A DNA stretch of 49,182 nt from contig CAIKHZ010000128.1 in the NCBI GenBank assembly GCA_903827375.1, forward strand, positions 1 through 49,182, read 5' to 3'. Position 1 is the first letter of the stretch; each line of letters opens with the position of its first letter. Below, one piece after another: positions 4,901 to 21,993 of the stretch. A model generated the notes under the pieces. That model saw only the letters and a list, made by a program, of their open reading frames with translations. It made no database searches and was not told the origin of the DNA. Source of the stretch: Akkermansiaceae bacterium (lineage in GTDB: Bacteria > Verrucomicrobiota > Verrucomicrobiia > Verrucomicrobiales > Akkermansiaceae). The translations under genes and the position numbers were made by a program.

Positions 4901-5615
4901 CTGTTTTGTTAGCGTCGGCAGTGAGCGCGGCGTACTCGGTTTCCAGCGGCGCGAGTTGCTCGAGCAATGCCTGAGCCGATGGGTACTTGGAGCCGAATTT
5001 GGCCTTGAGTTCCAGGATAGAAAGGCGCAAGGCGTTGCATGGGGTATTTACGGTGAGGGCAGGCGCGGCAAGGCCGGAGAAAAACAATCGGCAGCCGCCG
5101 GCATGACTGAACACTTTCACCAGCAAGTCATTTACGCCCGGCTGTAGGTCCAAGACAACTTTGAATTGGTTGGGCACCATGGCGTGCGGGCCTTTGTTAG
5201 AAAAGATTTTTTTACCGTTGAGCCAAGTCTCGATGCCGCCCTCGCTGCCGAAGCCGACGGGTATTTTGGCGGCGTTGCGGCATTGGATTGTGCGAAACAG
5301 ATAGGTGGTGGAGCCGTCCAGGGTTGAGAGTCCTTGGGTGGAGCCGTCGAGCCATTTTGGCTTGGGCGTCCACAGTGGCTTGCCATCGCTGGTGGTGGCT
5401 TTGAGATTGACGCCGGTTTCAGGAAACAACGCCTCGTTGAAACCGCTGGCTGGCAGTGGGCCGGTCGTGTACCAGGCCGACTGGATCGGCGGGGCGGGGA
5501 GTGGTGGCGTATCGGCGGCGCGGACACGGGTGGCGGCGATGCCGAGGGCGGAGCAAGCTAACCAGGCGAGCCAGCGGCCATACGGGGAGGCAGGTTGGAT
5601 TGGAGCGGGATTCAT
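1974..5615 (-). CDS. Secreted HzsA-like / c-heme / formylglycine-generating-enzyme-like fusion
   Basis: 1213 residues with an N-terminal signal-like hydrophobic stretch (residues 13-33). Order seen: a jelly-roll-like region near residues 110-180 (WLNGKKIF, LLVKVFSHAGG); a beta-propeller-like region, about 290-690, that resembles the hydrazine synthase alpha-subunit-related family (for example YLPDGRIIFDSTS and MPDGRVMFLRWEY); two CVGCH c-type heme sites near residues 722 and 772; and a C-terminal SUMF1/FGE-like domain from about 940 (GGGFAMGD, LPTEAQWEWAARAG, DMAGNVAEW, VRGGSW). The FGE fold oxidises or modifies side chains in sulfatase maturation, but here it may only bind ligands. The protein is probably periplasmic or surface exposed. 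It is divergently oriented to mutL across a 184-bp gap. The real substrate is unknown; the HzsA likeness does not imply hydrazine synthesis. Confidence 0.82.
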   Translation of the reverse strand: MNPAPIQPASPYGRWLAWLACSALGIAATRVRAADTPPLPAPPIQSAWYTTGPLPASGFNEALFPETGVNLKATTSDGKPLWTPKPKWLDGSTQGLSTLDGSTTYLFRTIQCRNAAKIPVGFGSEGGIETWLNGKKIFSNKGPHAMVPNQFKVVLDLQPGVNDLLVKVFSHAGGCRLFFSGLAAPALTVNTPCNALRLSILELKAKFGSKYPSAQALLEQLAPLETEYAALTADANKTADWQARFDALQRQALVTDNPYIDFTEILAVRRERKNLGLPQNWQGNSSIKPRIENELLRFEVKGNAPPTTIYKPAEPWFVGDINLHFDADRLLFSSIGNNNRWQVFELKLGETSPTLVTPDKDADIDNYNGIYLPDGRIIFDSTSSFVGVPCVGGADYVANLHLLSADRKSVRRLCFEQDNDWYPALMPDGRVMFLRWEYTDSAHYFSRVLMSMNPDGSNQIEYYGSNSYWPNSTFYAKPLPGQTGKFVGIVSGHHGAPRMGEMVCFDLTSGRQENSGALQRIPGYGKPVEDKIQDQLAGDFWPKSLHPLPIADKYFLVASQPRSNANWGIYLVDVFDNRVLLREEPGYAYLEPIPLRKTPTPPVIPDKVRLNEKTATVSIQDIYTGRGLPGVPRGTVKALRVYQYEYSYRNMGGHYCVGMEGPWDVRRLLGTVPVQPDGSSFFEIPANTPVSLQPLDAEGKALQLKRSWMVGMPGEHVSCVGCHDDQNSGGTAPKLTQAAQLPPAKVQPWHGPTRGFSFIREVQPVLDKYCVGCHDDKHPERPRFDDASGHFPKSYNALHPFVRRNGPEGDYHTLTPLEFHADTSDLIQMLQKGHYNVKLDAEAWDRLITWIDLNVPALGTWHEVGGIPKDFENRRREMLKQYAAIDEDIEAIPNPYVKTETFIQPPPMPPKPPVPAVPNWPFGAEQAAQMQKSLGSTETTLDLGDGKVLDLMRIPGGGFAMGDINGYPDEYPVSKVAIQKPFWMATTEISLEQYQQFNPQHANGYYDMHYKDQVKPGYLMDFPDLPVIRVTWNEAMDFCRWLSQRSGKHVTLPTEAQWEWAARAGSATPLWYGDLDTDFSQLANLGDVSLKKLAVSGVDPQPIKNPGKDVDFVPKDERFNDGVLHLAPCGHYQANPWGLKDMAGNVAEWTRSTYLPYPYQAAADALETHPAAKKSVRGGSWYDRPVHARSGFRQAYPTWQKVSNVGFRIIVED

Positions 5616-5799: not shown

Positions 5800-7683
5800 A
5801 TGGCGAAAATCCGAGTGCTTTCTGATATACTGGCGAGCCAAGTGGCAGCGGGTGAGGTCGTGGAACGGCCGGCTTCGGTTGTGAAGGAGTTGGTGGAGAA
5901 TAGCATTGACGCGGGAGCTGGTGAGATACGCGTGGATGTGGATCGTGGTGGGTCGGCGTTGATTCGGGTGAGCGATGACGGCTGTGGGATGTCGCGGGAA
6001 GATGCGCTGCTTTCGTTAGAACGGCATGCGACTAGCAAGCTGCGAAATGCCGGGGATTTGGCGGCGATCCGGACACTGGGATTTCGTGGGGAGGCGGTGC
6101 CGAGCATCGCGAGTGTGTCGAGATTTCGGATGGTGACGCGAGAGGCGGGATCGGTTGCAGGCACGGAAATCTTGGTGGAAGGTGGGCAGTTGCGGGATGT
6201 GCGGGAGGCGGGCTGCGCACCAGGCACCATGATTGAGGCGAAGGCGCTGTTTTTCAATATGCCGGCGCGGCGCAAGTTCATGCGGGCGGAATCGACCGAG
6301 GCGGCACATGTGGAGCATCAGGTGCGACTGCATGCGCTGGGAGCTCCGGGGGTGCGCTTTCGCCTGCGCCGGGATGAGCGTGAGGTATTCGATCTGGCAC
6401 CTGTGGCGCGGGCGGTGGATCGAGTCCGGCAGCTTCTCGGGACAGAGCTTGCCAAGGAATTGATCGCATTGCCTCTGACTCATGGCAACGGTCTGATCGT
6501 GGAGGGTTTTGTTCTGCCAGCAGCGCATGCCCGCAAAGGGAGACATCATCAGTTTGTGATTTTGAACGGACGTCCGGTGGAGGATCCTGTGATTGCCCGC
6601 GCCTTGGCAGAGGGGTTTCGCGGGGCCTTGGCCGATGGGCTCTATCCTGCGGCCTGGCTATGGATCGATTTAGAGCCAGCTCTGGTGGATGTGAACGTCC
6701 ACCCGGCCAAGCGAGAAGTTCGTTTTCACCGGCCGATAGACGTCAGGGAAACCATCTTGGCGGCTGTCCTCGCCGGGTTGAAACCCGTGGCTCACCCAAC
6801 GATCCGACGCATCGAGCCAAGTCACGGGTCAGCGAAAGACGACGGTCATAGGCCGCCGCTGCAACAAGACGACGGTCATAGGCCGCCGCTGCAACAAGAC
6901 GACGGTCATAGGCCGCCGCTGCAACAAGACGACGGTCATAGGCCGCCGCTACAGGGAGGCGGGCCGGTGGTGGCGCGTCCTTGGCGGAATCGGATGCAGC
7001 GGGAGTTGTTGCTGTCGTCGGCGGCGCACGCAACGGCGCAGGGGAATGAGTTAGGAGCCGTAGGGACAGGGTCTGGACCCGAAGCGGGGGCTAACGAGAC
7101 GATGGGATCTGCGCCAGTGTTTCGAGTGATGGGGATGCTGCACCACCGGTTGGTGGTGATGGAAAGTGAGGATGGTCTGGTCCTGTTTGATCCGAAGGCG
7201 GCGCGGGAGCGAATTTATTATGAGAAATTGCTCAAGAATCGCTCAGGAACGTTGGAGACGCAGAGCCTGTTAGTTCCGGTCTTGCTCGAATTGGATCCGC
7301 GGGACTTGGATCTGGTGCTGCGCGAACGCATGGCCTTGGTAGAGGCAGGCATCGAGGTGGAAGCATTTGGTGGCAACACCCTGCAAGTGAGGTGCTTGCC
7401 GACCTGTTTGCCGGTGGACGATCCGCGGGCGTTTCTTGGGGCGTTGATGGATGAGTTACTACACGAAGCTGCGCCCGGAATGCGTTTCGCTTTCGAGCGC
7501 TTGGCGCGATTGCTGGCAAGGCGGGCGGCGGCGCAGGTCACGCCGAAACTGGCGGAAGTTGCATGTTTGCTGGCTGACTTGTTTGCTTGCGAGCTGCCCT
7601 ATTGCACCCCGGGAGGCCGTCCGACGCTCAGCGAGCTTGGAATGAGTGAACTTGAGCGACGTTTCGGGGTGAGCCGCGGATGA
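5800..7683 (+). CDS. mutL: DNA mismatch repair protein MutL
   Basis: 627 residues. The N-terminal GHKL ATPase is complete: VAAGEVVERPASVVKELVEN (motif I, with the catalytic Glu and metal-binding Asn), DDGCGM, RHATSKL and TLGFRGEAVPSIASV. The VDVNVHPAKREVRF segment ends the transducer domain near residue 310. A proline-rich linker (about 345-425) contains four copies of a 10-residue unit encoded by a 30-bp DNA repeat. The C-terminal dimerisation domain is present, but the endonuclease motif expected as DQHAxxExxxxE reads DPKAARERIYYE, and the CPHGRP motif reads CTPGGRP, so metal-dependent nicking may be lost. The start lies 20 nt downstream of a GGGAGGGGAGGGG tract. MutL acts with MutS in post-replicative mismatch repair. 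Confidence 0.96.
   Translation: MAKIRVLSDILASQVAAGEVVERPASVVKELVENSIDAGAGEIRVDVDRGGSALIRVSDDGCGMSREDALLSLERHATSKLRNAGDLAAIRTLGFRGEAVPSIASVSRFRMVTREAGSVAGTEILVEGGQLRDVREAGCAPGTMIEAKALFFNMPARRKFMRAESTEAAHVEHQVRLHALGAPGVRFRLRRDEREVFDLAPVARAVDRVRQLLGTELAKELIALPLTHGNGLIVEGFVLPAAHARKGRHHQFVILNGRPVEDPVIARALAEGFRGALADGLYPAAWLWIDLEPALVDVNVHPAKREVRFHRPIDVRETILAAVLAGLKPVAHPTIRRIEPSHGSAKDDGHRPPLQQDDGHRPPLQQDDGHRPPLQQDDGHRPPLQGGGPVVARPWRNRMQRELLLSSAAHATAQGNELGAVGTGSGPEAGANETMGSAPVFRVMGMLHHRLVVMESEDGLVLFDPKAARERIYYEKLLKNRSGTLETQSLLVPVLLELDPRDLDLVLRERMALVEAGIEVEAFGGNTLQVRCLPTCLPVDDPRAFLGALMDELLHEAAPGMRFAFERLARLLARRAAAQVTPKLAEVACLLADLFACELPYCTPGGRPTLSELGMSELERRFGVSRG
6838..6953 (+). repeat. 30-bp tandem repeat within mutL linker
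   Basis: Three full 30-bp copies (6838-6867, 6868-6897, 6898-6927) and one 26-bp copy (6928-6953) lie in frame and encode DDGHRPPLQQ units. The unit contains GTCATAGGCCGCCGCT. The last copy ends CCGCTACAG, the same 3' end as a related sequence in the gap at 23350-23370. The unit length is a multiple of three, so copy-number change would not break the frame. Confidence 0.92.
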
Positions 7684-8110: not shown

Positions 8111-9511
8111 GTGTCTTACGTCAAGGAATTCACCCGGTTTTTCCACACTCGCAGTGATTCCAATGCTGATGAGGTGCGTGCCTATTTGAGCGGCCTCATG
8201 CAAGCCAAGCGCGGGGCGAAGAACCTCGAACGCATGGAGGAACACGTGCCGGATTTCAACTATCAGGCGGTTCACAACACCATCAGCCACTCGCCGTGGG
8301 ATTATCGCCCGCTCATGGATGAGGTCGCCCGCCGGGCCGACGGGCTGCTCGGCGGAGCCCCGCACTGCCGGCTCGTCATCGACGACACCGCATTTGCCAA
8401 GAAGGGCGATTGCTCCGTCGGGGTGGCTCCGATGTACAACGGACGGCTCGGCAAGATCGAAAACAGCCAGAACGCCGTCTGCACCAGTCTCGCCAGCGGC
8501 CAGCGGTCCACCCTCGTGGACATCCGCCTTTATCTGCCCAAGGCCTGGTGCGACGATTCCGAGCGCTGCGACAAAGCCGGCATCCCCGAGGATCAGCGCC
8601 AGTTTCTGACCAAGCCGCAAATCGCGCTTGAAAGCGTCCGCCACCAGCGCCAGCTCGGCATTGGCTTTGACCGCGTGGGCATGGACAGCGGCTACGGGAG
8701 CGACCACCCGTTCCTTCACGCGCTGGACCGCGACGGGGAAAATTTCGTGGCGGAGGTCCATTGTGACCAGCACATCTGGATCGAAGCGCCATGGCCCCAC
8801 CAGCAAGGCACCCGCCCCGGCAAGCCCCTGCTGCATCCGAAGGCGAGCCAGCCGAGCCAACGGGTTGACGCCTGGGCCGCCGCCCAACCCGACACCGCGT
8901 GGCAGCGGCTCAAGGTGCGCGACAGCGACCAGGGCTGGGTCGAGGTGAGCTACCTGGCGCAACGCGTGTGGGTGGTCGAAGGCGATGTCCAGAAAGTCTG
9001 GTGGCTGCTGGCTTGGGAAGATCCCGACGCGCGGACCAACAAGGGCGGCAAAACCACGGGCCCCCGCCGCCATTACGCCCTGAGCAACGACCCGGCCGAC
9101 GAGGATCCGCGCCTGCTGGTGGCCGATGGGGTCGAGCGCAACGTGGTAGAGCGCAACTTCCGCGATGGCAAAAAAGAGGTGGGAATGGCGGACTATCAGA
9201 CCCGCGGCTGGCTGGCCTGGCACCACCACATGGCGCTGGTGATGCTGGCATTGCTCTTCCTGACCCAGGAGCGCATGCACACTCCGGCACCCGCCACCCC
9301 GGAAGGCCCCATCAACATCACCAGTGGCGACATCACCTTCATTTTGGAGCGTCTGCTGCCCCGGCGCGGCCAAGGTCCGCCGGATGAGAAAGACCTCCGC
9401 CACATGTTGGAGCAACGAATAGAAAAACGCCTGAAAGACCAGGTCCGACGAAGAATCAAAACCCGAGCCACCCGCCCACCACTCTGGCCAGATGAGATCT
9501 TACCCAAATAA
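8111..9511 (+). CDS. IS701-family-like transposase (DDE)
   Basis: 466 residues, full length for the family. The DDE catalytic pattern is visible: LVIDDTAFAKKG around Asp 91/92, GMDSGYGSD with Asp 192, and VVERNFRDGKKEVGMADYQ holding the catalytic Glu region near 340-352. No ATG is available in frame before this point; an upstream TGA at 8015 closes the frame. The GTG at 8111 is therefore taken as start, though translation could begin slightly earlier at a non-standard codon. It is convergent with the respiratory operon. The frame is uninterrupted, so the element may be active. Confidence 0.9.
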   Translation: MSYVKEFTRFFHTRSDSNADEVRAYLSGLMQAKRGAKNLERMEEHVPDFNYQAVHNTISHSPWDYRPLMDEVARRADGLLGGAPHCRLVIDDTAFAKKGDCSVGVAPMYNGRLGKIENSQNAVCTSLASGQRSTLVDIRLYLPKAWCDDSERCDKAGIPEDQRQFLTKPQIALESVRHQRQLGIGFDRVGMDSGYGSDHPFLHALDRDGENFVAEVHCDQHIWIEAPWPHQQGTRPGKPLLHPKASQPSQRVDAWAAAQPDTAWQRLKVRDSDQGWVEVSYLAQRVWVVEGDVQKVWWLLAWEDPDARTNKGGKTTGPRRHYALSNDPADEDPRLLVADGVERNVVERNFRDGKKEVGMADYQTRGWLAWHHHMALVMLALLFLTQERMHTPAPATPEGPINITSGDITFILERLLPRRGQGPPDEKDLRHMLEQRIEKRLKDQVRRRIKTRATRPPLWPDEILPK

Positions 9512-9530: not shown

Positions 9531-10412
9531 TTAGGGCGCGCTTGGTGCCGGTGTTGCGGGTGCCGGTGTTGCGGGGGCCGGTGTTGCGGGGGCCGGTGTT
9601 GCGGGGGCCGGTGTTGCGGGGGCCGGTGTGGCGGGAACCGGTGTGGCGGGGGCTGGTGTTGCGGCCCCTGGGACGGGTTCTAGCGTGAGGGGATCGACCA
9701 TGGTGGTGGCAGTGACAAGTTTGCCGGGCAGGGCTTTGACGTGGTCGGCAGTGAGTTCCTCGATGGTGACGAATTGGCCGGCATTTTTTCGGGTGGCCGA
9801 GATTTTCATAGCGGCTTTGGCCATCTCGGTCGTGATCACGTCACCTTTGGTATTGCCGAAATGGTTGCGAACGTAGGTCATGATGCCAGCGAGTTCCTCC
9901 GGTGTCATGGGCACCTGTGGCGTCATCATCCCATAAACTTTCCCGTTGCTCGTTATTCCTTGCAGGCCGTTGAGGATGATCATGGAGAAGCGCTCGGTCT
10001 CGCCATTGGCCCAAGCGCTGCCGACCAGCGATGGGAAGTTGGTGCCATTGCCTTTGGCCTCCGGGCCGTGGCAGATGATGCACTTGGCCTCAAACACCTT
10101 CTTGCCGCGGGCCATGTAGGCCTCCAGTGCGGGCTTGGGCGGCAAGGGGGTGGCCACACTGCCGGGCGGAGTGCTGCGCACGTAACCATCACGAAACACC
10201 GAGGCGTAAGACAAGTGATCGCCACCATAGTCGAGAATAAAACCTGCTAGAATCAACACTGCGCCGCAGATGATGGTCGTGGGCCACAACGAAATCGGCT
10301 CAGTACCGTTATCCGGAATCCGTTTTTCACGTGCCGCAGCTGCATGCTCGGGAGCGGCGGCGGGCACTGCGGCGGGTTCGTTAGGATCGGTTGATTGAGA
10401 GGGCGCGGACAT
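9531..10412 (-). CDS. Monoheme cytochrome c, CcoP-like
   Basis: 293 residues: an Ala/Pro-rich N-terminus, one membrane helix (about 45-62, TTIICGAVLILAGFIL), a single CIICH c-heme site at residues 111-115 within a class I cytochrome c fold, with MMTPQVPMTPEE supplying candidate Met ligands, and a C-terminal tail of PATPA repeats. It is the last gene of the ACIII operon, 34 bp after the CcoO-like gene. A canonical cbb3 CcoP has two c-hemes; this one has one. It is probably anchored in the membrane with the heme outside, passing electrons from the complex to a partner. The tail is encoded by a 15-bp tandem repeat and probably varies in length between strains. Confidence 0.82.
   Translation of the reverse strand: MSAPSQSTDPNEPAAVPAAAPEHAAAAREKRIPDNGTEPISLWPTTIICGAVLILAGFILDYGGDHLSYASVFRDGYVRSTPPGSVATPLPPKPALEAYMARGKKVFEAKCIICHGPEAKGNGTNFPSLVGSAWANGETERFSMIILNGLQGITSNGKVYGMMTPQVPMTPEELAGIMTYVRNHFGNTKGDVITTEMAKAAMKISATRKNAGQFVTIEELTADHVKALPGKLVTATTMVDPLTLEPVPGAATPAPATPVPATPAPATPAPATPAPATPAPATPAPATPAPSAP
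9550..9669 (-). repeat. 15-bp tandem repeat coding for a PATPA tail
   Basis: Eight consecutive 15-bp units of the type GGTGTTGCGGGGGCC (plus strand) encode the Pro/Ala/Thr tail of the cytochrome. Units 2 to 5 are identical; the later ones have drifted. The in-frame unit permits length change without frameshift. Confidence 0.9.
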
Positions 10413-10446: not shown

Positions 10447-11166
10447 TCAACGGGCGGCGGCCTTAGGTTCGGGCGGAGCGAAATTCAGCGCGGCGGGAAC
10501 GGGTTGGTCTTTTTTCATGGCTAGCAGATAGGAGACCAATGCCTTGGCGTCCGGGCTCGGCAGCAACTCGGTGGTGGCGTCCCCTCCGAACGGCAGCGCC
10601 TCATTGGACGGTTGGCCCTTGATCTCGCGCCGGGTGAAAAGAAACCGATAGGATGGGCAAGTGGATTTGCGAGTCTCAGGGTTGCGCCGTGGGTCGTAGA
10701 GGTGGGCGTAAAACATCGCGGCAGGATCTCCACCGCCACCTTTGGCTGCCACCGCCGCCTCGAAGCGCCTCGCCACGTTAGCCAAGTCTGGCCCCATGCG
10801 GGTGAGGCCAATCTGCGCGAATGTCTCGCCCTCGAAGTCGTAGGCATTGGTCTCGCGGCGGGTGTCCCCACGCTCCGGATCCTTGGCCAGACCGGCCAAA
10901 TCCGCGCGATACATGTCGTTGCCAGCATAAGTCGGACGCGCCACTTGGGTGTGGCACAGGTAGCAGCCGTTCTCAGCATAGACCTTGGCCCCGTTGATAA
11001 TACGGCCACTGCGCTTCGGATAGAAAATGCCGGCCGCTCCATCGGTCTCCTTGGTGAGCGTGATGGGCTCGAGATTGCGCATCATGATGAAGGGAACAAT
11101 GACGACAAGCAACCAGGCGAGACCAAAGCTGGCGGCGAGGCCGAGGATGAATGGGCGGAGGGACAT
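10447..11166 (-). CDS. ccoO: CcoO-like monoheme cytochrome c (cbb3 subunit II)
   Basis: 239 residues from the ATG at 11166, chosen because MSLRPFILGL leads directly into the single N-terminal membrane helix; the frame extends further upstream but over the neighbouring gene. The c-heme site is CYLCH at 68-72, followed by QVARP. The distal ligand candidate is Met 124 in TRMGPDLANVARR. These are the CcoO hallmarks. The C-terminal half includes an AMFYAHLYDPR segment. In a cbb3 oxidase CcoO carries electrons to CcoN; here its CcoN partner lacks most metal sites, so its acceptor is uncertain. It sits 44 bp after the CcoN-like gene. Confidence 0.87.
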   Translation of the reverse strand: MSLRPFILGLAASFGLAWLLVVIVPFIMMRNLEPITLTKETDGAAGIFYPKRSGRIINGAKVYAENGCYLCHTQVARPTYAGNDMYRADLAGLAKDPERGDTRRETNAYDFEGETFAQIGLTRMGPDLANVARRFEAAVAAKGGGGDPAAMFYAHLYDPRRNPETRKSTCPSYRFLFTRREIKGQPSNEALPFGGDATTELLPSPDAKALVSYLLAMKKDQPVPAALNFAPPEPKAAAR

Positions 11167-11210
11167 GGGAAATCGCGGAGGGTGGATATAGAAAAGATAG
11201 GGGGTGGCTC

Positions 11211-12671
11211 TCAGTGGCTGGCGGGGGCGGCGTGCTCGGCGGCCGAATCCAACAGGGTCGGGGCACCGCAGGGACGGCCACGGCCTAACCACATCATGGC
11301 GAGATGAAGGAAGAAGAAAACGTTAGAGAACAAGATGACGCACCAAGCGAAGGTGGAAACTGCGGCGTAGGGGCGGACGACATCGGTGACGGTTTCCCAT
11401 GGTTGGAGCCAGGCTTCCTGAGCGCTGCCTTGGATAAAACCGCCAAACAAGGCACCGAAGGCGATTGCGACGATGCCGTAGGCCGAGAAGAAGAAGTGCA
11501 TATTGATCAAGCGGCTGGATACCCACTCGCGGCAGGTGATGCGTGGCACGATGAAGTACACGGCACCAAACATCATGAAACTGAAACAGCCGTAGAGCGC
11601 GAGAATCTCAAAACCATAGCCGGAGATGGAGAACTGGGTAAGCTTGAGCGAGGATCCCGGCAGATTCAGGGCGATGGCAGCCACCGCCAGCAACAATAGT
11701 CCCATCAGACCGGCCAGCGTGAAATGGAGCGCGGGACTCTTGGGGAGCTTTTCCTCTGAGGAATAAATCGTACGCAGGATGTTGGCGACCGCGATGGCCA
11801 AAGGCACAGCCAACAGCACGGTGGCCGCAGCTCCCAGATAAGGCAGGAACACCCCGGTCAGCGGCACTCCTGCGAGTTTTTGCATGCCGGCCCAAGGTGC
11901 CACCACTGCCAGTGACCAAAATCCCAACTTGGCGAGCGATGTGCTGGGAATCGGCCGACCGGTTAGTTTGGGAGCCAGATAATAAGCGGTGCCGATGGCG
12001 ATTGGAATGAAGAACAAGAAGATCAGGGCCGATTTGAACCAAGCGTTGATGGCGGCGGCCATCAGCGGATGCGTGCTGGCGCAAAATAACAGTCCGTTGG
12101 CGGTGATGAAGACCCATGGAAACCAGATCATTGCCCCCAGCAAATACCACTGCGCCACATACGAGCGCTCACCATCCCGCACCCGGAACTGAATGAATGA
12201 CCACACCACGATCGCGCAATAACAAAGCAATAAACCTGGCCACACAAAGGCCGGAAATTCCATCCATGGCATGCCTGTTCCCCGGCCATCGAGAATGCCA
12301 ATGGTGCCTAACAGCACAACCAGATTCCACACGTGCCCGGCAGTGAGAATGGTCCCCGCCGCCCGGCATTCCTGATGCGACATCCGCGCCATCAGCCAAA
12401 TGAGCACCCCGAAGCCCGCCTGAAACCCCCAGCCGTAGATAAGCGTGTTGATATGTGCCGGAAACACCCGGCCGTAACTCGCATATTCACAGTCATCCAT
12501 GAACTGCGGACAGTGCACCTTGATCGAGGCAATGATGGCCAGCAGAATCGACACCGCCAGCCAAGCAGCCCCACTGGTTAGAAAAAACATCACCGGATGA
12601 CGCAGCGAGCGGTCAATCCCGGCTCGCAGCGTGGCGTCCGATAAGGCAGTGGCGGAAGAGGCAGATGACAT
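11211..12671 (-). CDS. CcoN-like heme-copper oxidase subunit I lacking most metal ligands
   Basis: 486 residues with about twelve membrane helices, alignable by eye to cbb3 subunit I: YGRVFPAHINTLIYGWGF (helix 2), NAWFKSALIFLFFIPIAIGT, KLGFWSLAVVAPWAGMQK and FGAVYFIVPRITCRE. Only the helix 2 low-spin heme His (His 73) is kept. The CuB His of the family's W-Y-G-H-N segment is Ser 214; the CuB His-His pair is Gln 264-Lys 265; the cross-linked Tyr position is Ala/Pro; and the His-x-His that binds heme b3 and the low-spin heme is absent, with that segment reading SGYGFEILALYG. A functional oxygen-reducing centre is therefore not expected. It is flanked by intact-looking CcoO-like and ActF genes and is likely a structural subunit or an anchor for the cytochromes. 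Confidence 0.85.
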   Translation of the reverse strand: MSSASSATALSDATLRAGIDRSLRHPVMFFLTSGAAWLAVSILLAIIASIKVHCPQFMDDCEYASYGRVFPAHINTLIYGWGFQAGFGVLIWLMARMSHQECRAAGTILTAGHVWNLVVLLGTIGILDGRGTGMPWMEFPAFVWPGLLLCYCAIVVWSFIQFRVRDGERSYVAQWYLLGAMIWFPWVFITANGLLFCASTHPLMAAAINAWFKSALIFLFFIPIAIGTAYYLAPKLTGRPIPSTSLAKLGFWSLAVVAPWAGMQKLAGVPLTGVFLPYLGAAATVLLAVPLAIAVANILRTIYSSEEKLPKSPALHFTLAGLMGLLLLAVAAIALNLPGSSLKLTQFSISGYGFEILALYGCFSFMMFGAVYFIVPRITCREWVSSRLINMHFFFSAYGIVAIAFGALFGGFIQGSAQEAWLQPWETVTDVVRPYAAVSTFAWCVILFSNVFFFLHLAMMWLGRGRPCGAPTLLDSAAEHAAPASH

Positions 12672-12698: not shown

Positions 12699-13088
12699 TC
12701 AGGGCTTGACTGGGGGCACGGTTTCAGCGGGCGCGGCAGCGGGAGCAGGAGTGGCAGCCGGCTCGGCGGCGAGTTTGAGAGCCGTAGGCGATCCGGGTAC
12801 CACCTGGTCGGGCCGCTCAACGGCGGTGGGTTTGGCGGCCGGCAGGGTGGGGGCGACCTTGGCGATGGCTGCGGCGATTTGCTCTGCGGGCAAGGCAGCC
12901 GACTGGGCTGCCACCCATTTGTCTCTGGTGGCGTAACGCGCCACTGCGGCGGCATCCTCGAGGTTGCTAGGCGGCTTGCGGTTGAAAAGGATGACAGCGG
13001 CGAGCAGCACGGCAAACATCAAAAATGTCCACAATGCCCACCAAAATGTGTTGAAGCGGAGCAGCGGATTATCGCGGGTGGGGTCCAT
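12699..13088 (-). CDS. Small single-helix membrane protein in ACIII operon, unknown
   Basis: 129 residues. One membrane helix near residues 13-35 (FWWALWTFLMFAVLLAAVILF) is followed by about 90 residues rich in Ala and Pro, presumably outside the membrane. I do not recognise the family. It lies 69 bp after actF and 27 bp before the CcoN-like gene, in the same direction, so it is probably co-transcribed and co-assembled with the complex. The position is where other operons carry small oxidase subunits, but nothing in the sequence proves that role. Confidence 0.75.
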   Translation of the reverse strand: MDPTRDNPLLRFNTFWWALWTFLMFAVLLAAVILFNRKPPSNLEDAAAVARYATRDKWVAAQSAALPAEQIAAAIAKVAPTLPAAKPTAVERPDQVVPGSPTALKLAAEPAATPAPAAAPAETVPPVKP

Positions 13089-15250: not shown

Positions 15251-15805
15251 TCAATCTTCCTCGGCGACGAGTTCAATGTTAGACCCGCCGATTTCCTCGA
15301 GGAGGTCGCGGGTGCCGGCGGTGCTGAAGTTGCCATCGCGGGCCTCGATGGCGATGAAGAACCCGTCATCGGTGGCGCGGTGGAATTGGTGACTGGCGAA
15401 GAGTGGGTGATTGAGTCGTGGCAGGCGGATGAGTGAGAGCAGTCCGAAGAGCACCGTGAAGCCCGAGAACAGGATCGTCAGTTCGAACATGATAGGGAAA
15501 AACGCCGGGATGGTGAAGATATTGGCGGGTTTGCCCTGCACCACGGTTGGGAAGATCACCACTTGGGTCGAGTAGGCCAGGGTGAAGGCGGTGGCAGTGC
15601 CGGTGATGCCGCCGCAAAAGACGAACCACGGCAGCACGGAGCGCTTGATGCCCATGGCCCCGTCGAGGCCGTGGATTGGATAGGGAGAATAACAATCCCA
15701 TTGTTTGAAGCCGGCGTCGCGGACTTTTTCCGCGGCTTTGTAGAGGGCCGAGGCGCTCTTGAACTCGGCGAGATATCCGTAAACTCGTTGGCGGGTGCTG
15801 CTCAC
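15251..15805 (-). CDS. actD: ACIII subunit ActD (DUF3341)
   Basis: 184 residues with the DUF3341 pattern: an N-terminal soluble segment ([26 protein letters not shown] and [13 protein letters not shown]), two membrane helices (about 57-80 and 100-122), and the [10 protein letters not shown] segment. ActD is a structural membrane subunit without cofactors in known ACIII structures. Its ATG overlaps the stop of actC by 4 bp, indicating translational coupling. Confidence 0.9.
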
Positions 15806-17331
15806 TGGGGGATGGAGAGTTGAGGTTCGAGATTGCCGATGGCCGGTTTCTGGGCGGAAAGTTGCGCCAGTTCATGCTGATAGGCGGGTTCCTTGATCAC
15901 GCCCGGATCGGGATGTTCGACGTGATCCTCGTAATGCGGATCCGACTCACGTTTGGCCCACTTCACCTCGGCAATGTTGATGCAAGGCAGGAAGCGCAGG
16001 AATAACAGGAACAATGAGAGGAAAAATCCGATTGTGCCGATGAACAATATCTGGTCGGCCGCTGAGGGTGCATAGGTTTTCCAATCGCCCGGCAGCCACG
16101 AGCGGGCCAGGGTGGTGACGATGATGACGAAGCGTTCGAACCACATGCCGACGTTGACGAACATGGCGACGATCATCACGACCCATAGGTTTTCGCGGCA
16201 GGCGCGCGACCAGAAGACCTGGGGGGCGATCACATTGCAGGTCATCATTGCCGCGTAGGCCCACCAGTACGGCCCTGCGATGCGGAACTTGAATGCATCC
16301 ATTTCGTAAATTGCACCCGAGTAGAACGCCACAAACAGCTCCATCAGATAGGCATAACCAACGATCGTGCCCGTCAGGAGGATGATCTTGGCCATGTTGT
16401 CGATGTGCTTCATGGTGATCAAGTCCTGCAGGCCGTAGATAAACCGGGCCGGGACCATGATTGTGAGCACCATTGCGAAGCCGCCGAAAATGGCACCGGC
16501 GACGAAGTAAGGCGGAAAGATGGTGGTATGCCAACCGGGCACCACCGAGGTGGCAAAGTCGAAGGACACCACCGAGTGGACCGAGAGCACGAGCGGGGTG
16601 GAAAGCGCGGCTAACAGCAGATATGCCATTTCATAGTGGCTCCATTGGCGGTTGCCTCCGCGCCAGCCGAGGGACAGGATGCCATAGATGATTTTGCGGA
16701 TGCCGGGCTGGCAGCGATCGCGGATGGTGGCGAGGTCGGGCACCATGCCGAGGAACCAGAAGATAAGTGAGACGGTGAAATAGGTGGACACCGCAAACAC
16801 GTCCCACAAGAGCGGCGACTTGAAGTTTTGCCAGATGGCATTGGCATTGGGAACCGGCGCGAGGAACCAAGCCATCCACACCCGTCCGACGTGGAAGGCC
16901 GGGAAGATACCCGCGCACATCACCGCGAAGATGGTCATGGCCTCGGCGGCGCGGTTGATCGAGGTGCGCCAGTTCTGTCTTGTTAGGAAAAGAATGGCGG
17001 AGATCAGGGTGCCGGCATGGCCGATACCGATCCAGAACACGAAGTTGACGATGGGCCAGCCCCACATGACGCGGTTGGTGTTGCCCCAGACGCCGACGCC
17101 GGTGGACACCAGATAGAACAATCCACCGCCCACTCCGATGGCGGCGATCAGGGCGGATGGGATGAAAAGCAACCACCACAGGAGCGGTTGCTGGTTTTCC
17201 AAGACGCCGCAAATGCGCGCGGTGATCCAATGGTATGAGCGCCCGCTGAGAATGAGCTTCTCGCGCTCAAGCACCGGAAGGATCGGTCTCGAGTGGGAGG
17301 CCTCCGAGGCGTGCTGGATGGGGGATGCCAT
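15802..17331 (-). CDS. actC: ACIII subunit ActC (NrfD/PsrC-type quinol-binding protein)
   Basis: 509 residues, about ten membrane helices. Segments such as [21 protein letters not shown]-type ([20 protein letters not shown] is visible), [19 protein letters not shown] and [19 protein letters not shown] are diagnostic of NrfD/PsrC homologues in ACIII. It is expected to bind quinol on the side facing ActB. It overlaps actD by 4 bp and follows actB by 42 bp. Confidence 0.93.
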
Positions 17332-17373: not shown

Positions 17374-20300
17374 TCAGGCCATGTGGATGGTGGCCTTGCC
17401 AATGAACCGTGCGTCGGGCATGTCCGGATTCGGGTTTTTGACTCGCGCCAAATAACTGGTGCGCGGCCGGGTTCCGATGTAGTTGAGCAAATCGTACGAG
17501 CGCTCCAGGCGCTTGGCACGGCCGAGGGCGGATTTTTCCTCATCCAACAAATTGCCGAAGGTGATGGCGGTGGCGGGGCAGGCGTCCTGACAGGCGGTCC
17601 TAACCGAGTCCACTGGGATGCGGAGGGTTTCGGCAGTGACGGTCATTTCGGTGGACGGTTTGCCGGCGGCGAGGGCCTCCTGTTTCGGGGCGCGTTTCTG
17701 GCGGATGACCGCATCCTTGAGGCGCTGCACACAGTAGGTGCATTTTTCCATCACACCGCGCATCCGCACCGTGACGTTGGGATTGCGCTGGAGATGGGGT
17801 GCCTCTCCCACTTGTTTTTCACCCAGCGGTCCCTTGTAGAGGTTGTGGGCGATGAGGGGGTTGCGCTTGTTGTAATCAAAGAAATTGAAGCGGCGCACCT
17901 TGTAAGGGCAATTGTTAGCGCAATAGCGGGTGCCGATGCAGCGATTGTAGGCCATCGCATTGAGGCCGTCTTCGGTGTGGACTGTGGCATTGACGGGGCA
18001 GACGGTTTCGCAGGGGGCCAGCTCGCATTGGAGGCAGGCGACGGGCTGCGGGACGAGTGCGGGATTGTCGGCGTCGAAGTCATTGTCCTTCTGGGTGGCG
18101 AAATACCGGTCCATGCGGATCCAGTGCATTTCGCGGCCTTTAGCGACTTGTTCCTTGCCGACGATGGGGATGTTGTTCTCGGCTTGGCAGGCGACGAGGC
18201 AGGCGTTGCAGCCCATGCAGGCGGACAAGTCGATGGCCATTCCCCACTGGTGGAGCGTGTCGCTGAGGAAATCAGGGGCCTTGCCATCCTTGTCGGGATG
18301 CCAGGTGGCGGAACCCTTTTGTTGATAGAGCGGAAGATTGGGCGGGGCGTGGGCGTCGTTGCCCTGTTTTTTAACGTTGGCGAGTTGGTGTTCAAACGAG
18401 CCGAGTTTGGCGTCGTCGATGGTGGACACTTCGCGGGCCAAGGCGCGGCCGTACATCGCGCTGTGTTCCTGGGTGACGGCGATTGAATAGACCGCTGCGG
18501 TTTTCTTGGCAGTGGCTCCGGTGGCGAAATATGGGCTGCCGGCGTTGCGCAGCGGATAGGCGTTGAACCCGCGATTGACGCCGACGCGGCCGACGTGGGC
18601 GGCATTGGCGGTGGAGCGTTTGAGTTCGTCGTCGTCGTCGCAGCCCTGGCCATAGCCGAGCGGGATGACCAACGTATTTTCGGCTTGGCCGAAGGAAATG
18701 AGGACGGGAATATCCAAGGTGGTGCCATTGACGACGACGCGGATCATCGGTGAGCGGCGGTTGCCACCTTCGCCATCTGGATAGGACTTGCCATAAGTGC
18801 TCTCGATGCCGAGCACACGGGTGACCGGTTCGGGGCTGATGATCAGGTCGTAGATGCCGAGGTTTTTCGCGGTGAGCGGGGCGATGAGAGCGGCGTTATC
18901 CCAGGTGAGTTTGGAGATGGGATCGGGTGCTTCCTGAAGCCAGCCGTTATCAATCCATCGTCCGTCAAACACAGAGGAATCCGTGGAAAAAACGATTTCC
19001 AATGCCTGTGGAGTGGGCACCGGGGCCTTTGCCTTTGCAATGTCCGAGGCTGCGGAGGTGGCGGTTTTTGGCATCACCGGCGTATAGGCATGGCCATCAG
19101 CAAACCCATCGCGCAAGAATTTCTTCCATGGCTCATCGCCTGCCCCGGCCAACGCGCTGAAGGTGGCACGCACTGCGCCGTATGCTGGCGAGGCCTCGCC
19201 TTTCGGGCCTTCGCCATTGAGCAACTTGCCGTCGTCGCTGAGCAGTGCCAGCAAGATCTCGAGTTCGGACACGCAATCCGGATAGAGAGGGAGGATCATC
19301 GGCTGCACCGCGGTGTAGGTGCCGCGGCATGTGCGGGCATCTGCCCATGATTCGAGGTAATGGGCGGCGGGAACGTGCCAAGTGGAGGCATGGGCCGTGG
19401 CATCGCAGCGTTGTCCGAGATGAATGCTGGTTTTGAGTTTCGCAAAACTTTCCCCGAATTTCAGGTCTGGCAAAGCGTCGTAAATCGGATTGGACGGGGT
19501 GAGCAGCACCAGGGTTTCGATGGTCCCTGCATCGATATCCGTCTTGAGGCTGGCCAGATTGCCGAGGCCTGCGGTTTCCGTTTGGACGGCCGTGAGTGGC
19601 TTGTTGGCAGCGATGTTGCCCAGCACCAGATTGATGGCCAAAGCCAAGTGGTGGAGGGCGGCGGGTTGGCGCGAGCCGGCGAGCACCAGCGACTTGCCGG
19701 GGTTGTCCTTGAGATCCTTGATGACACCCTGCACCCAGGCGATTTGCTTCTTGTCAGTGAGGGCCGGAATTTCACTCACCAGTGCCGTGTTGCTGATGAT
19801 ACCTCGGGCAATCTCCGCCGCCACCGTTAGGACCTGGCTCGGTGCCACCCGCAGGCGGTGATCGGCCATCCCACCGGTAAGCGTGTAGGCTGCCTCCACC
19901 GCATACAAACGGTTCATTTTAGCCACCTCCGCCGCTTTCGCATATCCTCCACCTTCCGGTTTGCGGCGATCGAAAAACCCCTTCACCGGCCCCTGCGGAT
20001 CGGTGCCTGCAAAATCACAGTCGAGCGATAAAATCCGGTCGGCCTTGGCAAAGTCAGCCACCCATTGCACCCCGTCGCCCAGCGCCACGGCAGACTCCCC
20101 AGTGAGCGCCTCGTATTGATAAAATTTCGCCGATCCAAATTTGGCCGCCAATTCCTTGCGCAAACGGTTGCGCGTCGGGCTGTCGTCAGCCCCAAATAAG
20201 AAGCCGATCTTTGCCGACTTATCCACTGCGAGGGCGGCGATGACCGGTTCAAATTCGCCGCGTGTGGTCGCCTTGCCGACCCTGAGAAATTTGCGTGAGC

Positions 20301-20766
20301 GTGACGGCGAGTACAGGTCCAGCACCGACGCCTGGGCAAAGGCGTCCGTCCCGTCTGCATCCGGGTGGAGGTGGTTAGGTGCCACCTTTGTCGGGCGGCC
20401 TTCGAAGGACGTGACCACCAGCGGCGTGGCACCGTTGGCGCGTGGCATACTGGATGCGTAGTAGGTCGCCTTGCCGGGAATCACCCATTCCGGAGCCTTG
20501 GTGAACGGGACAATGTAGCTTTCCGGGCGGCGGCAGGCGGCCATTCCCAGGCCGGCCAGCGCGGTGGATGCGCCCATCAATTTGAGGAACGAGCGGCGCG
20601 AGACATCGGCGTCGCCCGCATCAGCCATTTCAGCGGCTCCTTGCGGAAATTCGCGCTCCAGCCAATGGCGGAATTCGGCGCTGTCTTCTAGCTGCCCGGC
20701 GCTGCGCCATGCAACGGTGGATTCATCGGCGGAAACTGCGGGGTGATTCCAGGTGCGCTTACTCAT
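17374..20766 (-). CDS. actB: ACIII subunit ActB (molybdopterin-oxidoreductase-like with FeS domain)
   Basis: 1130 residues. A twin-arginine region with a long N-terminal extension is seen at about residues 54-75 (SRRSFLKLMGAS, ending in an AAC), typical of the TAT-variant ActB family. The large middle part resembles a molybdopterin oxidoreductase; family members studied lack the cofactor. The C-terminal FeS domain carries four Cys clusters: CMGCNACLVAC near 849, CLQCELAPCETVCP near 912, CIGTRYCANNCP near 945, and CTYCVQRL (about 1008) with CQDACP (about 1059). It is exported by Tat and faces the periplasm. It lies 49 bp after actA. Confidence 0.95.
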   Translation of the reverse strand: MSKRTWNHPAVSADESTVAWRSAGQLEDSAEFRHWLEREFPQGAAEMADAGDADVSRRSFLKLMGASTALAGLGMAACRRPESYIVPFTKAPEWVIPGKATYYASSMPRANGATPLVVTSFEGRPTKVAPNHLHPDADGTDAFAQASVLDLYSPSRSRKFLRVGKATTRGEFEPVIAALAVDKSAKIGFLFGADDSPTRNRLRKELAAKFGSAKFYQYEALTGESAVALGDGVQWVADFAKADRILSLDCDFAGTDPQGPVKGFFDRRKPEGGGYAKAAEVAKMNRLYAVEAAYTLTGGMADHRLRVAPSQVLTVAAEIARGIISNTALVSEIPALTDKKQIAWVQGVIKDLKDNPGKSLVLAGSRQPAALHHLALAINLVLGNIAANKPLTAVQTETAGLGNLASLKTDIDAGTIETLVLLTPSNPIYDALPDLKFGESFAKLKTSIHLGQRCDATAHASTWHVPAAHYLESWADARTCRGTYTAVQPMILPLYPDCVSELEILLALLSDDGKLLNGEGPKGEASPAYGAVRATFSALAGAGDEPWKKFLRDGFADGHAYTPVMPKTATSAASDIAKAKAPVPTPQALEIVFSTDSSVFDGRWIDNGWLQEAPDPISKLTWDNAALIAPLTAKNLGIYDLIISPEPVTRVLGIESTYGKSYPDGEGGNRRSPMIRVVVNGTTLDIPVLISFGQAENTLVIPLGYGQGCDDDDELKRSTANAAHVGRVGVNRGFNAYPLRNAGSPYFATGATAKKTAAVYSIAVTQEHSAMYGRALAREVSTIDDAKLGSFEHQLANVKKQGNDAHAPPNLPLYQQKGSATWHPDKDGKAPDFLSDTLHQWGMAIDLSACMGCNACLVACQAENNIPIVGKEQVAKGREMHWIRMDRYFATQKDNDFDADNPALVPQPVACLQCELAPCETVCPVNATVHTEDGLNAMAYNRCIGTRYCANNCPYKVRRFNFFDYNKRNPLIAHNLYKGPLGEKQVGEAPHLQRNPNVTVRMRGVMEKCTYCVQRLKDAVIRQKRAPKQEALAAGKPSTEMTVTAETLRIPVDSVRTACQDACPATAITFGNLLDEEKSALGRAKRLERSYDLLNYIGTRPRTSYLARVKNPNPDMPDARFIGKATIHMA

Positions 20767-20815: not shown

Positions 20816-21514
20816 TCAATGGTGACAGGTGGCGCAGGTGGTTTTTGGGGACACCCGGAATTGCTCCTTGAGCTTGAGCCCAAACTCAGCAGGGGTCTTC
20901 GCACCAGCCTGCGGGTGGTCCTTGAGGTATTGGGCCGCGTCGTACTTCATGTTGTACACCTGCTCCAGCGGCCGCAACTGGGTTTCCGGCGCACGGTGGC
21001 AATCCAAACACCATCCCATCGATTGGTTCTGATCCTGAAATACCACTTCCATCTGGTCAATCCGACCATGGCAACTCACACAGGAAATCCCCCGGTTCAC
21101 ATGCGCCGAATGATTGAATTTTACAAAATCCGGCGACTTGTGGATGCGCACCCACTCGATCGGCTTGCCATCGTAACCGGCAAATGCCGGATCCATCGAC
21201 TTGCGCAGCGGCGCAAGCTTCGGACTCTCGCGTTGCACGTGCTGATGACAATTCCAGCAGGTGTTGCCCGTCGGCAAATTGGAATGCCCGGACACATCCA
21301 CAAACGAGTGGCAGTAACGACAGTCCATGCCCACCTGATCCACGTGAATCTTGTGCGAAAACGGGATCGGTTGGGACGGCTGATAGCCGACCACCTGGGC
21401 TTTCGGCGTCGCGTAATACGTGAACGCGACAGTCACTCCCGCGGCCACCGCAAGCACGCAGAAGGCGATTTTGAGGGGCAGCAGGTTCGACCAGCGAGGG
21501 AAGGTGTTTGCCAT
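20816..21514 (-). CDS. actA: ACIII subunit ActA, pentaheme cytochrome c
   Basis: 232 residues with one N-terminal membrane helix (KIAFCVLAVAAGVTVAFTYY) and exactly five CxxCH sites: CRYCH, CWNCH, CVSCH, CLDCH and, at the extreme C-terminus, CATCHH. That count and spacing match the ACIII pentaheme subunit. The start at 21514 (MANTFPRWSN) is chosen because it sits directly before the membrane anchor; the frame is open 36 codons further upstream but that part has no family features. It is the first gene of the nine-gene leftward operon, so the promoter should lie in 21515-21993. Confidence 0.94.
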   Translation of the reverse strand: MANTFPRWSNLLPLKIAFCVLAVAAGVTVAFTYYATPKAQVVGYQPSQPIPFSHKIHVDQVGMDCRYCHSFVDVSGHSNLPTGNTCWNCHQHVQRESPKLAPLRKSMDPAFAGYDGKPIEWVRIHKSPDFVKFNHSAHVNRGISCVSCHGRIDQMEVVFQDQNQSMGWCLDCHRAPETQLRPLEQVYNMKYDAAQYLKDHPQAGAKTPAEFGLKLKEQFRVSPKTTCATCHH

Positions 21515-21993
21515 GGGAGGGCTCTGGGAAATGGGATGAAAATTGCGGAATGGGTAGAGACAAAGACGAAAAGCGCCCCGAACGTCGCCGGTCGAGGCCG
21601 CAAAGATGCAACCCACAGCCAAGCTTGCAACCGAAAAAATTCAGAATTTTCTTTTCGATGGATAGGCACCCAGCGGCCAGGTGACGCGAGAAATCGCTTG
21701 ACGGCTTGCCGTCCTCGCCATGTCCGATGGGCACATCACCGTTCCTCTTCCGGTCTCACGAAACCAATCCCAAGCTTTCAGAGGCAGTTACAGTACCCTA
21801 ACTGGAATCTATTATCGGCCCAGGAGAGACCTATTGCCGGGCCATGCTGAGGCCCCGATTCCCACCCATTGATCGCCGCGTTAAATCCTTCCGTTCCATC
21901 AGGCTCAATGAGCGATGCCACCGGGTGCCCATATTTACTTTCTCTCAATCCGTGATTGCATCCTTGCGCGGCCACGGCATGCTCCGCGTCCCC
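21515..21993. other. Divergent promoter region, actA and phosphofructokinase
   Basis: No gene is supported in these 479 bases. The two flanking operons diverge from here, so both promoters should lie within it. A perfect 7-1-7 palindrome, AAAATTCAGAATTTT, at 21636-21650 is the only operator-like feature I see. No promoter boxes can be called with confidence. Confidence 0.4.

Follow-up and report, generated by a model that had tools for sequence, protein, structure and literature searches.

What is a heme-copper oxidase subunit retained for once its oxygen-reducing site has gone? The question is raised by a stretch of 49,182 nucleotides from an Akkermansiaceae bacterium (Verrucomicrobiota; Verrucomicrobiia), hereafter the window, in which a homologue of the cbb3 oxidase subunit CcoN, here called CcoN*, is encoded behind the actABCDEF genes of ACIII.

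CcoN* and its setting in the window

The gene for CcoN* lies at 11211-12671, as given in the earlier note, and is read from the minus strand, the plus-strand reading of this interval containing stops. Its homology to CcoN over the full length, noticed at the outset by eye, emerges concordantly from three comparisons: PF00115 matches residues 27-441 with 133.6 bits (cut-off 34.8), the CcoN chain 3mk7_A aligns with residues 31-467 (E 2e-15), and an AlphaFold model built from 40 sequences (pLDDT 89.4, pTM 0.90) superimposes on 3mk7 with TM 0.86/0.90 and rmsd 2.3, cbb3 CcoN chains being its top PDB matches in Foldseek. The predicted fold is thus that of heme-copper subunit I. By contrast, the curated ccoN equivalog TIGR00780 gives CcoN* 86 bits, under the cut-off of 583, a cut-off missed as well by the ligand-bearing relative L117 (272.8 bits).

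Ligand positions were assigned by sequence alignment, directly to 3mk7 and through a family alignment; further readings come from direct alignments of single copies to PDB CcoN chains and from extra named loci. In 3mk7 numbering, we take His60 and His347 to be the ligands of the low-spin heme b, His345 that of heme b3, and His207, His257 and His258 those of CuB, with Tyr251 and Glu323 as active-site residues. In CcoN*, His60 corresponds to His73, the sole ligand histidine kept of the six, and its low-spin partner His347 to Ile356; the heme b3 ligand His345 is replaced by Phe354, so that the His-x-His of the heme pair is gone, and the cross-linked Tyr251 has become Ala258. The CuB ligands His207, His257 and His258 are replaced by Ser214, Gln264 and Lys265, exactly as the earlier note had read them. 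The Glu323 column is less secure, falling on Ala331 in one alignment and one to two residues off in the other; in both, the surrounding stretch of CcoN* is devoid of Glu. Misalignment does not explain the losses, because the His and Tyr sites sit among columns that are kept in CcoN* and are 100% conserved in 24 ligand-bearing relatives (W211, P234, K235, W252, W260, G262, P270, Y372 and P376). Judged by these positions, CcoN* would carry neither heme b nor copper. The one other PF00115 protein of the genome is a fused CcoNO with all ligands.

The genes of the operon run in one direction, in the following order:

20816..21622, minus strand: ActA, five CXXCH
17374..20766, minus strand: ActB, named from position and size
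15802..17331, minus strand: ActC (NrfD family), PF03916 84.3 bits
15251..15805, minus strand: ActD, PF11821 204.2 bits
14519..15205, minus strand: ActE-like cytochrome c, one CXXCH, PF13442 48.7 bits, PF00034 40 bits
13158..14495, minus strand: ActF, named from position and size, Pfam scan without match
12699..13088, minus strand: 129-aa protein directly before CcoN*, Pfam scan without match
11211..12671, minus strand: CcoN*, 486 aa, predicted CcoN-fold heme-copper subunit I, five of six His ligands missing
10447..11166, minus strand: CcoO-like membrane cytochrome c, one CXXCH (CYLCH), PF02433 31.0 bits (cut-off 29.6)
9531..10412, minus strand: CcoP-like membrane cytochrome c, one heme motif (CIICH), PF00034 47.4 bits

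The mechanical extent of the CcoO-like ORF is 10447-11292, the likelier start being the ATG of MSLRPFIL at about 11166. Typical CcoP proteins have two heme motifs. The module of the window differs from cbb3 in its CcoP with a single CXXCH and in being set in an ACIII operon, and it shares with C-family oxidases, in addition to the fold and full-length homology of CcoN, the N-O-P order with CcoO and CcoP homologues. Two other ORFs of the window can be recorded here: 1974-5615 encodes a 1213-aa protein matching FGE-sulfatase and the hydrazine-synthase-alpha middle domain, and 5800-7683 is a 627-aa ORF, MutL-like by eye, with a tandem DGHRPPLQQ repeat.

Spread and selection of ligandless CcoN

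A survey of Verrucomicrobia beside actF, suggested in the earlier note, reveals that ligand loss is widespread in the class. Matches at E 1e-25 or better, ligand-bearing members included, were found in 196/286 genomes; family f1 also holds a genus of many near-complete 2-3.5 Mb genomes without a match, and in two genomes of that genus PF00115 is absent altogether. Among 139 related CcoN, 115 are ligandless (0-3 His) and 24 ligand-bearing (5-6 His), with 0, 1, 2, 3, 5 and 6 His kept in 30, 71, 11, 3, 1 and 23 copies, respectively, and four in none. Tyr251 is kept in 24/24 ligand-bearing copies versus 1/115 ligandless ones. Glu323, conserved in 11 canonical copies, is kept by none of the 24 ligand-bearing CcoN, which form a divergent, presumably active subgroup of the C family. 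One of them, L117, resembles CcoN* in its place behind ActF and the lack of Glu323 (35.6% identity) and differs in keeping all six His and the Tyr and in its strong matches to PDB CcoN chains (E 2.4e-62 for 9g83, 7.4e-60 for 3mk7).

Gene neighbourhoods were scored in 89 long loci from 51 families; loci of less than 6 kb (49 f1 copies and L074) are outside the synteny and ACIII-tree counts, and nine duplicates (L001, L002, L072, L073, L075-L079) were dropped before counting. The 65 ligandless and 24 ligand-bearing long loci do not represent a frequency, because class representatives were chosen at about one or two per family. The ligandless state occurs in 35 families and the ligand-bearing one in 20, including four (f13, f17, f23 and f32) with both. 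ActF is found upstream of CcoN in 86/89 loci, and in the remaining three (L080, L102 and L049 (contig end)) no ACIII genes were seen beside CcoN. CcoO was found in 88 of the loci and CcoP in 87 (misses: L124, L116 and L084); in L124, the 742-aa CcoN ORF itself holds a CXXCH. With the window included, CXXCH is present in 89/89 CcoO and 88/88 CcoP, 65 of each beside a ligandless CcoN, in a set that favours heme-bearing proteins since the ORFs were picked by similarity to those of the window.

A second, named set comprised the best 80 loci ranked by similarity to methanotroph ActC. In these 80, CcoN lies behind ActF in Verrucomicrobiota records and in L209; the Planctomycetota and Acidobacteriota records showed no CcoN, having either CoxA or nothing recognised before the stretch ended, and no CcoN was found in the 10 kb read downstream of the Verrucomicrobiota ACIII of L190. 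Of copies longer than 400 aa, 39/45 are ligandless and six ligand-bearing (five shorter rows uncounted), a proportion biased by the way the 80 were selected. L209, titled Proteobacteria bacterium, has an ACIII and a ligandless CcoN much like those of the Verrucomicrobiota record L206 and is probably a mislabelled bin.

Some copies occupy an intermediate state, in which both low-spin ligands are kept and those of CuB and b3 are lost: L049, L087 (read directly against 3mk7) and L088, along with the named records L165, L166, L169, L172 and L179, one of them titled Chthoniobacterales. Such intermediates make a stage with heme b alone plausible. They also lend some substance, as does the presence of His73 in 49/49 sequences of the window's family and in 91% of 70 f1-f6 sequences, to the reading that CcoN* itself is an electron relay with a single low-spin heme b, coordinated by His73 together with a distant or non-His ligand. 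However, in the window Ile stands in place of the partner His347, and the His60 position is lost in 48/139 copies; we regard this relay as improbable.

Is CcoN* simply a decaying gene, carried along by its operon position? Ligand loss itself would fit decay, and ligandless and ligand-bearing CcoN of one family are only 32-55% identical even where, compared by eye, such pairs are close on the ACIII core tree. In Chthoniobacter flavus Ellin428, moreover, the gene is split over two frames (L196, 14613-16095), through sequencing error or decay. Against this stand an unbroken reading frame in both the window and its relatives, dN/dS of 0.058-0.182 for the 12 pairs drawn from the full set (10 ligandless, 2 ligand-bearing) and 0.078-0.124 in four pairs of the window and its near relatives, and the near-invariance of the replacement residues: in the 49 sequences of the window's family, Gln264 is conserved at 100%, Lys265 at 95%, Ser214 at 91%, Ile356 at 89% and Phe354 at 81%. 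Given this selection and the invariant His73, decay in the window's lineage is rejected, and we give it hardly any credence. The earlier note held that close relatives keeping all ligands would mark CcoN* as a decayed copy. Relatives with ligands do exist, 23/139 with six His and one with five, but they belong to other families, whereas the window's own family conserves the replacement residues.

The phenomenon reaches beyond what the earlier note had envisaged, extending to verrucomicrobial methanotrophs, which we take to be marked by PF02461 (pmoA/amoA family), found in 8/8 genomes of family f12. None of the eight has a TIGR00780 match above 44.6 bits, the best being the ACIII-linked copy; for comparison, the true copy of the window genome scores 592 and a ligand-bearing ACIII-linked copy 272.8. 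At the positions H60/H207/Y251/H257/H258/E323/H345/H347, five f12 copies read ADAAHLQT, ADAAHLQV or SESSHGFV (one reading verified by direct alignment), so that five of six His are gone and His is kept at position 258 alone; the named Methylacidiphilaceae record L162 reads ADAAHLQI. Two more short PF00115 proteins of f12 have NorB as best match. In L129, L130 and L135, the ActC ORF measures 672-761 aa and no separate ActD was detected, possibly owing to a fusion. A cbb3-type oxidase beside ACIII has been described in these methanotrophs, according to the parts consulted of PMC8498564, PMC6688271 and PMC11102522, the second of which, in the part seen, ties it to high oxygen affinity. Gene order and family suggest that the f12 copies are the published genes. 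Because five copies are ligandless and TIGR00780 scores do not exceed 44.6 bits, the reported methanotroph "cbb3 oxidase", which shares the gene neighbourhood of CcoN* and is presented as an oxidase in those parts of the literature, is probably not one.

How often the site was lost

On the ActC+ActF+ActB tree of 84 rows, from which rows without ActC or ActF were excluded, the two states require 14 changes, 11 of them forced by well-supported branches, and 0/500 shuffles were as low. These parsimony counts do not separate loss from gain; when regain is forbidden, 19-26 losses result over all rootings. For 46 rows hand-picked after the 84-row tree as bearing on independent losses, the ActC+ActF tree under a mixture model gives 12 changes, 11 forced, and a single ligandless clade is rejected (p-AU 2.3e-5). 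The partners of CcoN lead in the same direction: the CcoO+CcoP tree built for these 46 loci needs 10 changes, five forced, and these data also reject a single ligandless clade (p-AU 2.8e-9). This tree unites ligandless and ligand-bearing loci within f32 (support 99) and f17 (93), and loci of both states from f13 and f23 fall in the same small groups.

By contrast, the trees of CcoN itself, built with the ligand columns removed, show 3 changes (110 rows, LG) and 2 changes (50 rows, namely the 46 and four outgroup rows; mixture model), both with a long-branch warning. The CcoN trees thus favour a single origin of the ligandless state, which both other data sets (ACIII core, CcoO+CcoP) reject. 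Because the tree of the partners disagrees, we are inclined to read the low counts on the CcoN trees as long-branch attraction. The simplest joint reading of all trees would be repeated loss in place followed by faster evolution of CcoN; the alternative is that CcoN alone was exchanged and in some cases replaced by an older ligandless CcoN. Apparently, then, ligand loss in the class occurred several separate times. On balance, we favour the more specific view that an ACIII-linked cbb3 subunit was converted in place some ten or more times independently, yielding an eight-c-heme complex composed of ActA-F and CcoN*OP, and that the methanotroph copy is among these and does not reduce O2.

A proposed role for CcoN* and the oxidases beside it

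If CcoN* does not reduce oxygen, another enzyme might. PF00115 proteins were scored in 115 genomes (E <= 0.001 or E <= 1e-8, depending on the batch), and at least two were found in 88/91 genomes with ligandless CcoN and in 22/24 with the ligand-bearing form, which is the only one in G061 and G066. The suspicion that another oxidase always accompanies ligandless CcoN is nearly true: in 3/91 genomes no second heme-copper subunit was found (G048, G295 and G098), and of these, two, G295 (98% complete) and G098 (95%), encode cytochrome bd (CydA) in addition to the ligandless CcoN*OP behind ACIII, whereas G048 (82% complete) yielded no CydA match either. Ligandless CcoN is rarely the sole heme-copper subunit I.

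In many relatives, an oxidase that we assign to the A family from its HPEVY motif and CuA subunit is encoded downstream of CcoP. In f2, f3, f4 and f6, CoxA follows CcoP immediately or one ORF on in 19/20 loci, on the same strand and within 5 kb of CcoN, with CoxC next; 5/5 methanotroph loci likewise have a co-oriented CoxA downstream of CcoP, and in most genomes examined from the window's family CoxA lies some 3 kb past CcoN*. An early impression that a CuA subunit was missing proved wrong, since CoxB was found in five clusters read farther downstream; it has the CuA motif and no CXXCH (three confirmed as PF00116). With no c heme on CoxB, an outside c heme would fit.

These observations invite the reading that CcoN* is an adaptor docking ACIII to the downstream A-family (aa3-like) oxidase, CcoO and CcoP forming a heme-c bridge. 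Supercomplexes of ACIII with aa3/caa3 oxidases are indeed known from Flavobacterium johnsoniae and Rhodothermus marinus; in the consulted parts of PMC8552683 and PMC5928083, ACIII genes are followed by oxidase genes and a c-heme domain located on ActA, ActE or subunit IIc links the complexes, and, unlike in the window, those parts do not mention a CcoNOP module. In the part available of PMC13274419, a Verrucomicrobiota isolate has ActABCDEF followed directly by cox genes. However, by similarity search (a motif search missed many CoxA), CoxA is near in 27/65 ligandless versus 5/24 ligand-bearing long loci, so that the downstream A-family oxidase is no general companion of ligand loss, and 38/65 ligandless loci have no CoxA in the 1.6-6.3 kb read behind CcoN. 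Five genomes that keep CcoN* (the window's, G035, G006, G025 and G028) show no such CoxA, their PF00115 proteins being only CcoN* and a long one like the fused CcoNO. We therefore deem a dedicated docking adaptor unlikely. In the window, the CcoP-like gene meets, tail-to-tail, a DDE_5 transposase ORF (8111-9511, plus strand), which occupies the site of the A-family oxidase genes of many relatives.

A further reading makes CcoN* an ion-conducting or conformational partner of ActC/ActF that would add proton translocation to ACIII. The fold is kept, and Lys235, Arg96, Glu382 and Arg377 are 100% conserved in f1-f6; however, ligand-bearing relatives conserve them to the same degree, so they may be structural, and no coupling site is known. 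We rate this very improbable.

The retained non-catalytic role put forward in the earlier note fits best, the site being lost and the fold, the CcoO/CcoP partners and the operon being preserved under purifying selection, as that note had seen. Thus, we propose, with a probability of roughly two in three, that CcoN* has no catalytic function and belongs, as a membrane subunit, to an extended ACIII, where it holds CcoO and CcoP. In this scenario, CcoN* would descend from a functional cbb3-type unit, CcoNOP, of the kind located downstream of actABCDEF in numerous members of the class. The window's lineage is one of many in which CcoN would then have shed its ligands for CuB and heme b3, and mostly those for the low-spin heme b as well, whereas the c-heme motifs of CcoO and CcoP persisted. 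CcoN*OP, whose place behind the ACIII genes is conserved, would be physically associated with ACIII, and CcoN* would serve as a membrane platform keeping CcoO/CcoP on ACIII as electron exits. Electrons would pass from menaquinol through ActB/ActA/ActE to CcoO/CcoP and on to a separate terminal oxidase, which would be the A-family enzyme encoded just downstream in most of the relatives read from the window's taxonomic order and, in the genome from which the window comes, the fused CcoNO at another locus. Points against this platform are the invariance of His73 in the window's family, for which there is no obvious reason without a bound heme, the low counts on the CcoN trees, the three genomes that showed no second heme-copper subunit, the patchy presence of CoxA, which the window's lineage lacks although it keeps CcoN*, the three long loci in which no ACIII genes were seen beside CcoN, and the ACIII of L190 with no CcoN behind it.

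Recruitment of a further inactive module by ACIII seems plausible because the complex already holds silent enzyme modules. ActB of ACIII has a domain without Mo, and this domain and the quinone-less ActF are, to our knowledge, general to ACIII. ActF is an NrfD subunit without a quinone site, according to the consulted part of PMC8076601. Like these modules, CcoN* would be an enzyme fold reused minus its cofactor or substrate site; unlike them, it arose in one class, apparently repeatedly. In the open PubMed Central literature, we found no account of a CcoN without ligands next to ACIII. If the proposal is correct, a terminal-oxidase subunit has repeatedly been turned into a structural part of a respiratory complex, a case in which catalysis was lost in parallel and the scaffold kept, with a course that can be traced on a tree and living intermediates in which only the ligands of the low-spin heme survive. 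It would also suggest, in a form open to testing, how ACIII connects to an A-family oxidase when subunit II of the latter lacks a c-heme domain, and an ACIII-adjacent "ccoN" in Verrucomicrobiota, methanotrophs included, should have its ligands checked before being counted as a high-affinity oxidase.

A last observation concerns the 129-aa protein. In its place, many relatives have a longer protein (about 250-260 aa) that includes a cytochrome c domain, absent from the window copy, and most of its f1 relatives (235-323 aa) hold the CXXCH domain. The motif is present in 19/20 readable f1 genomes with an A-family oxidase (two Pfam-checked) and in 0/4 without one, which is suggestive, and only that, of its absence tracking the absence of the oxidase in the window's lineage; some early f1 branches are also without this CXXCH, and among them G294 has the oxidase.
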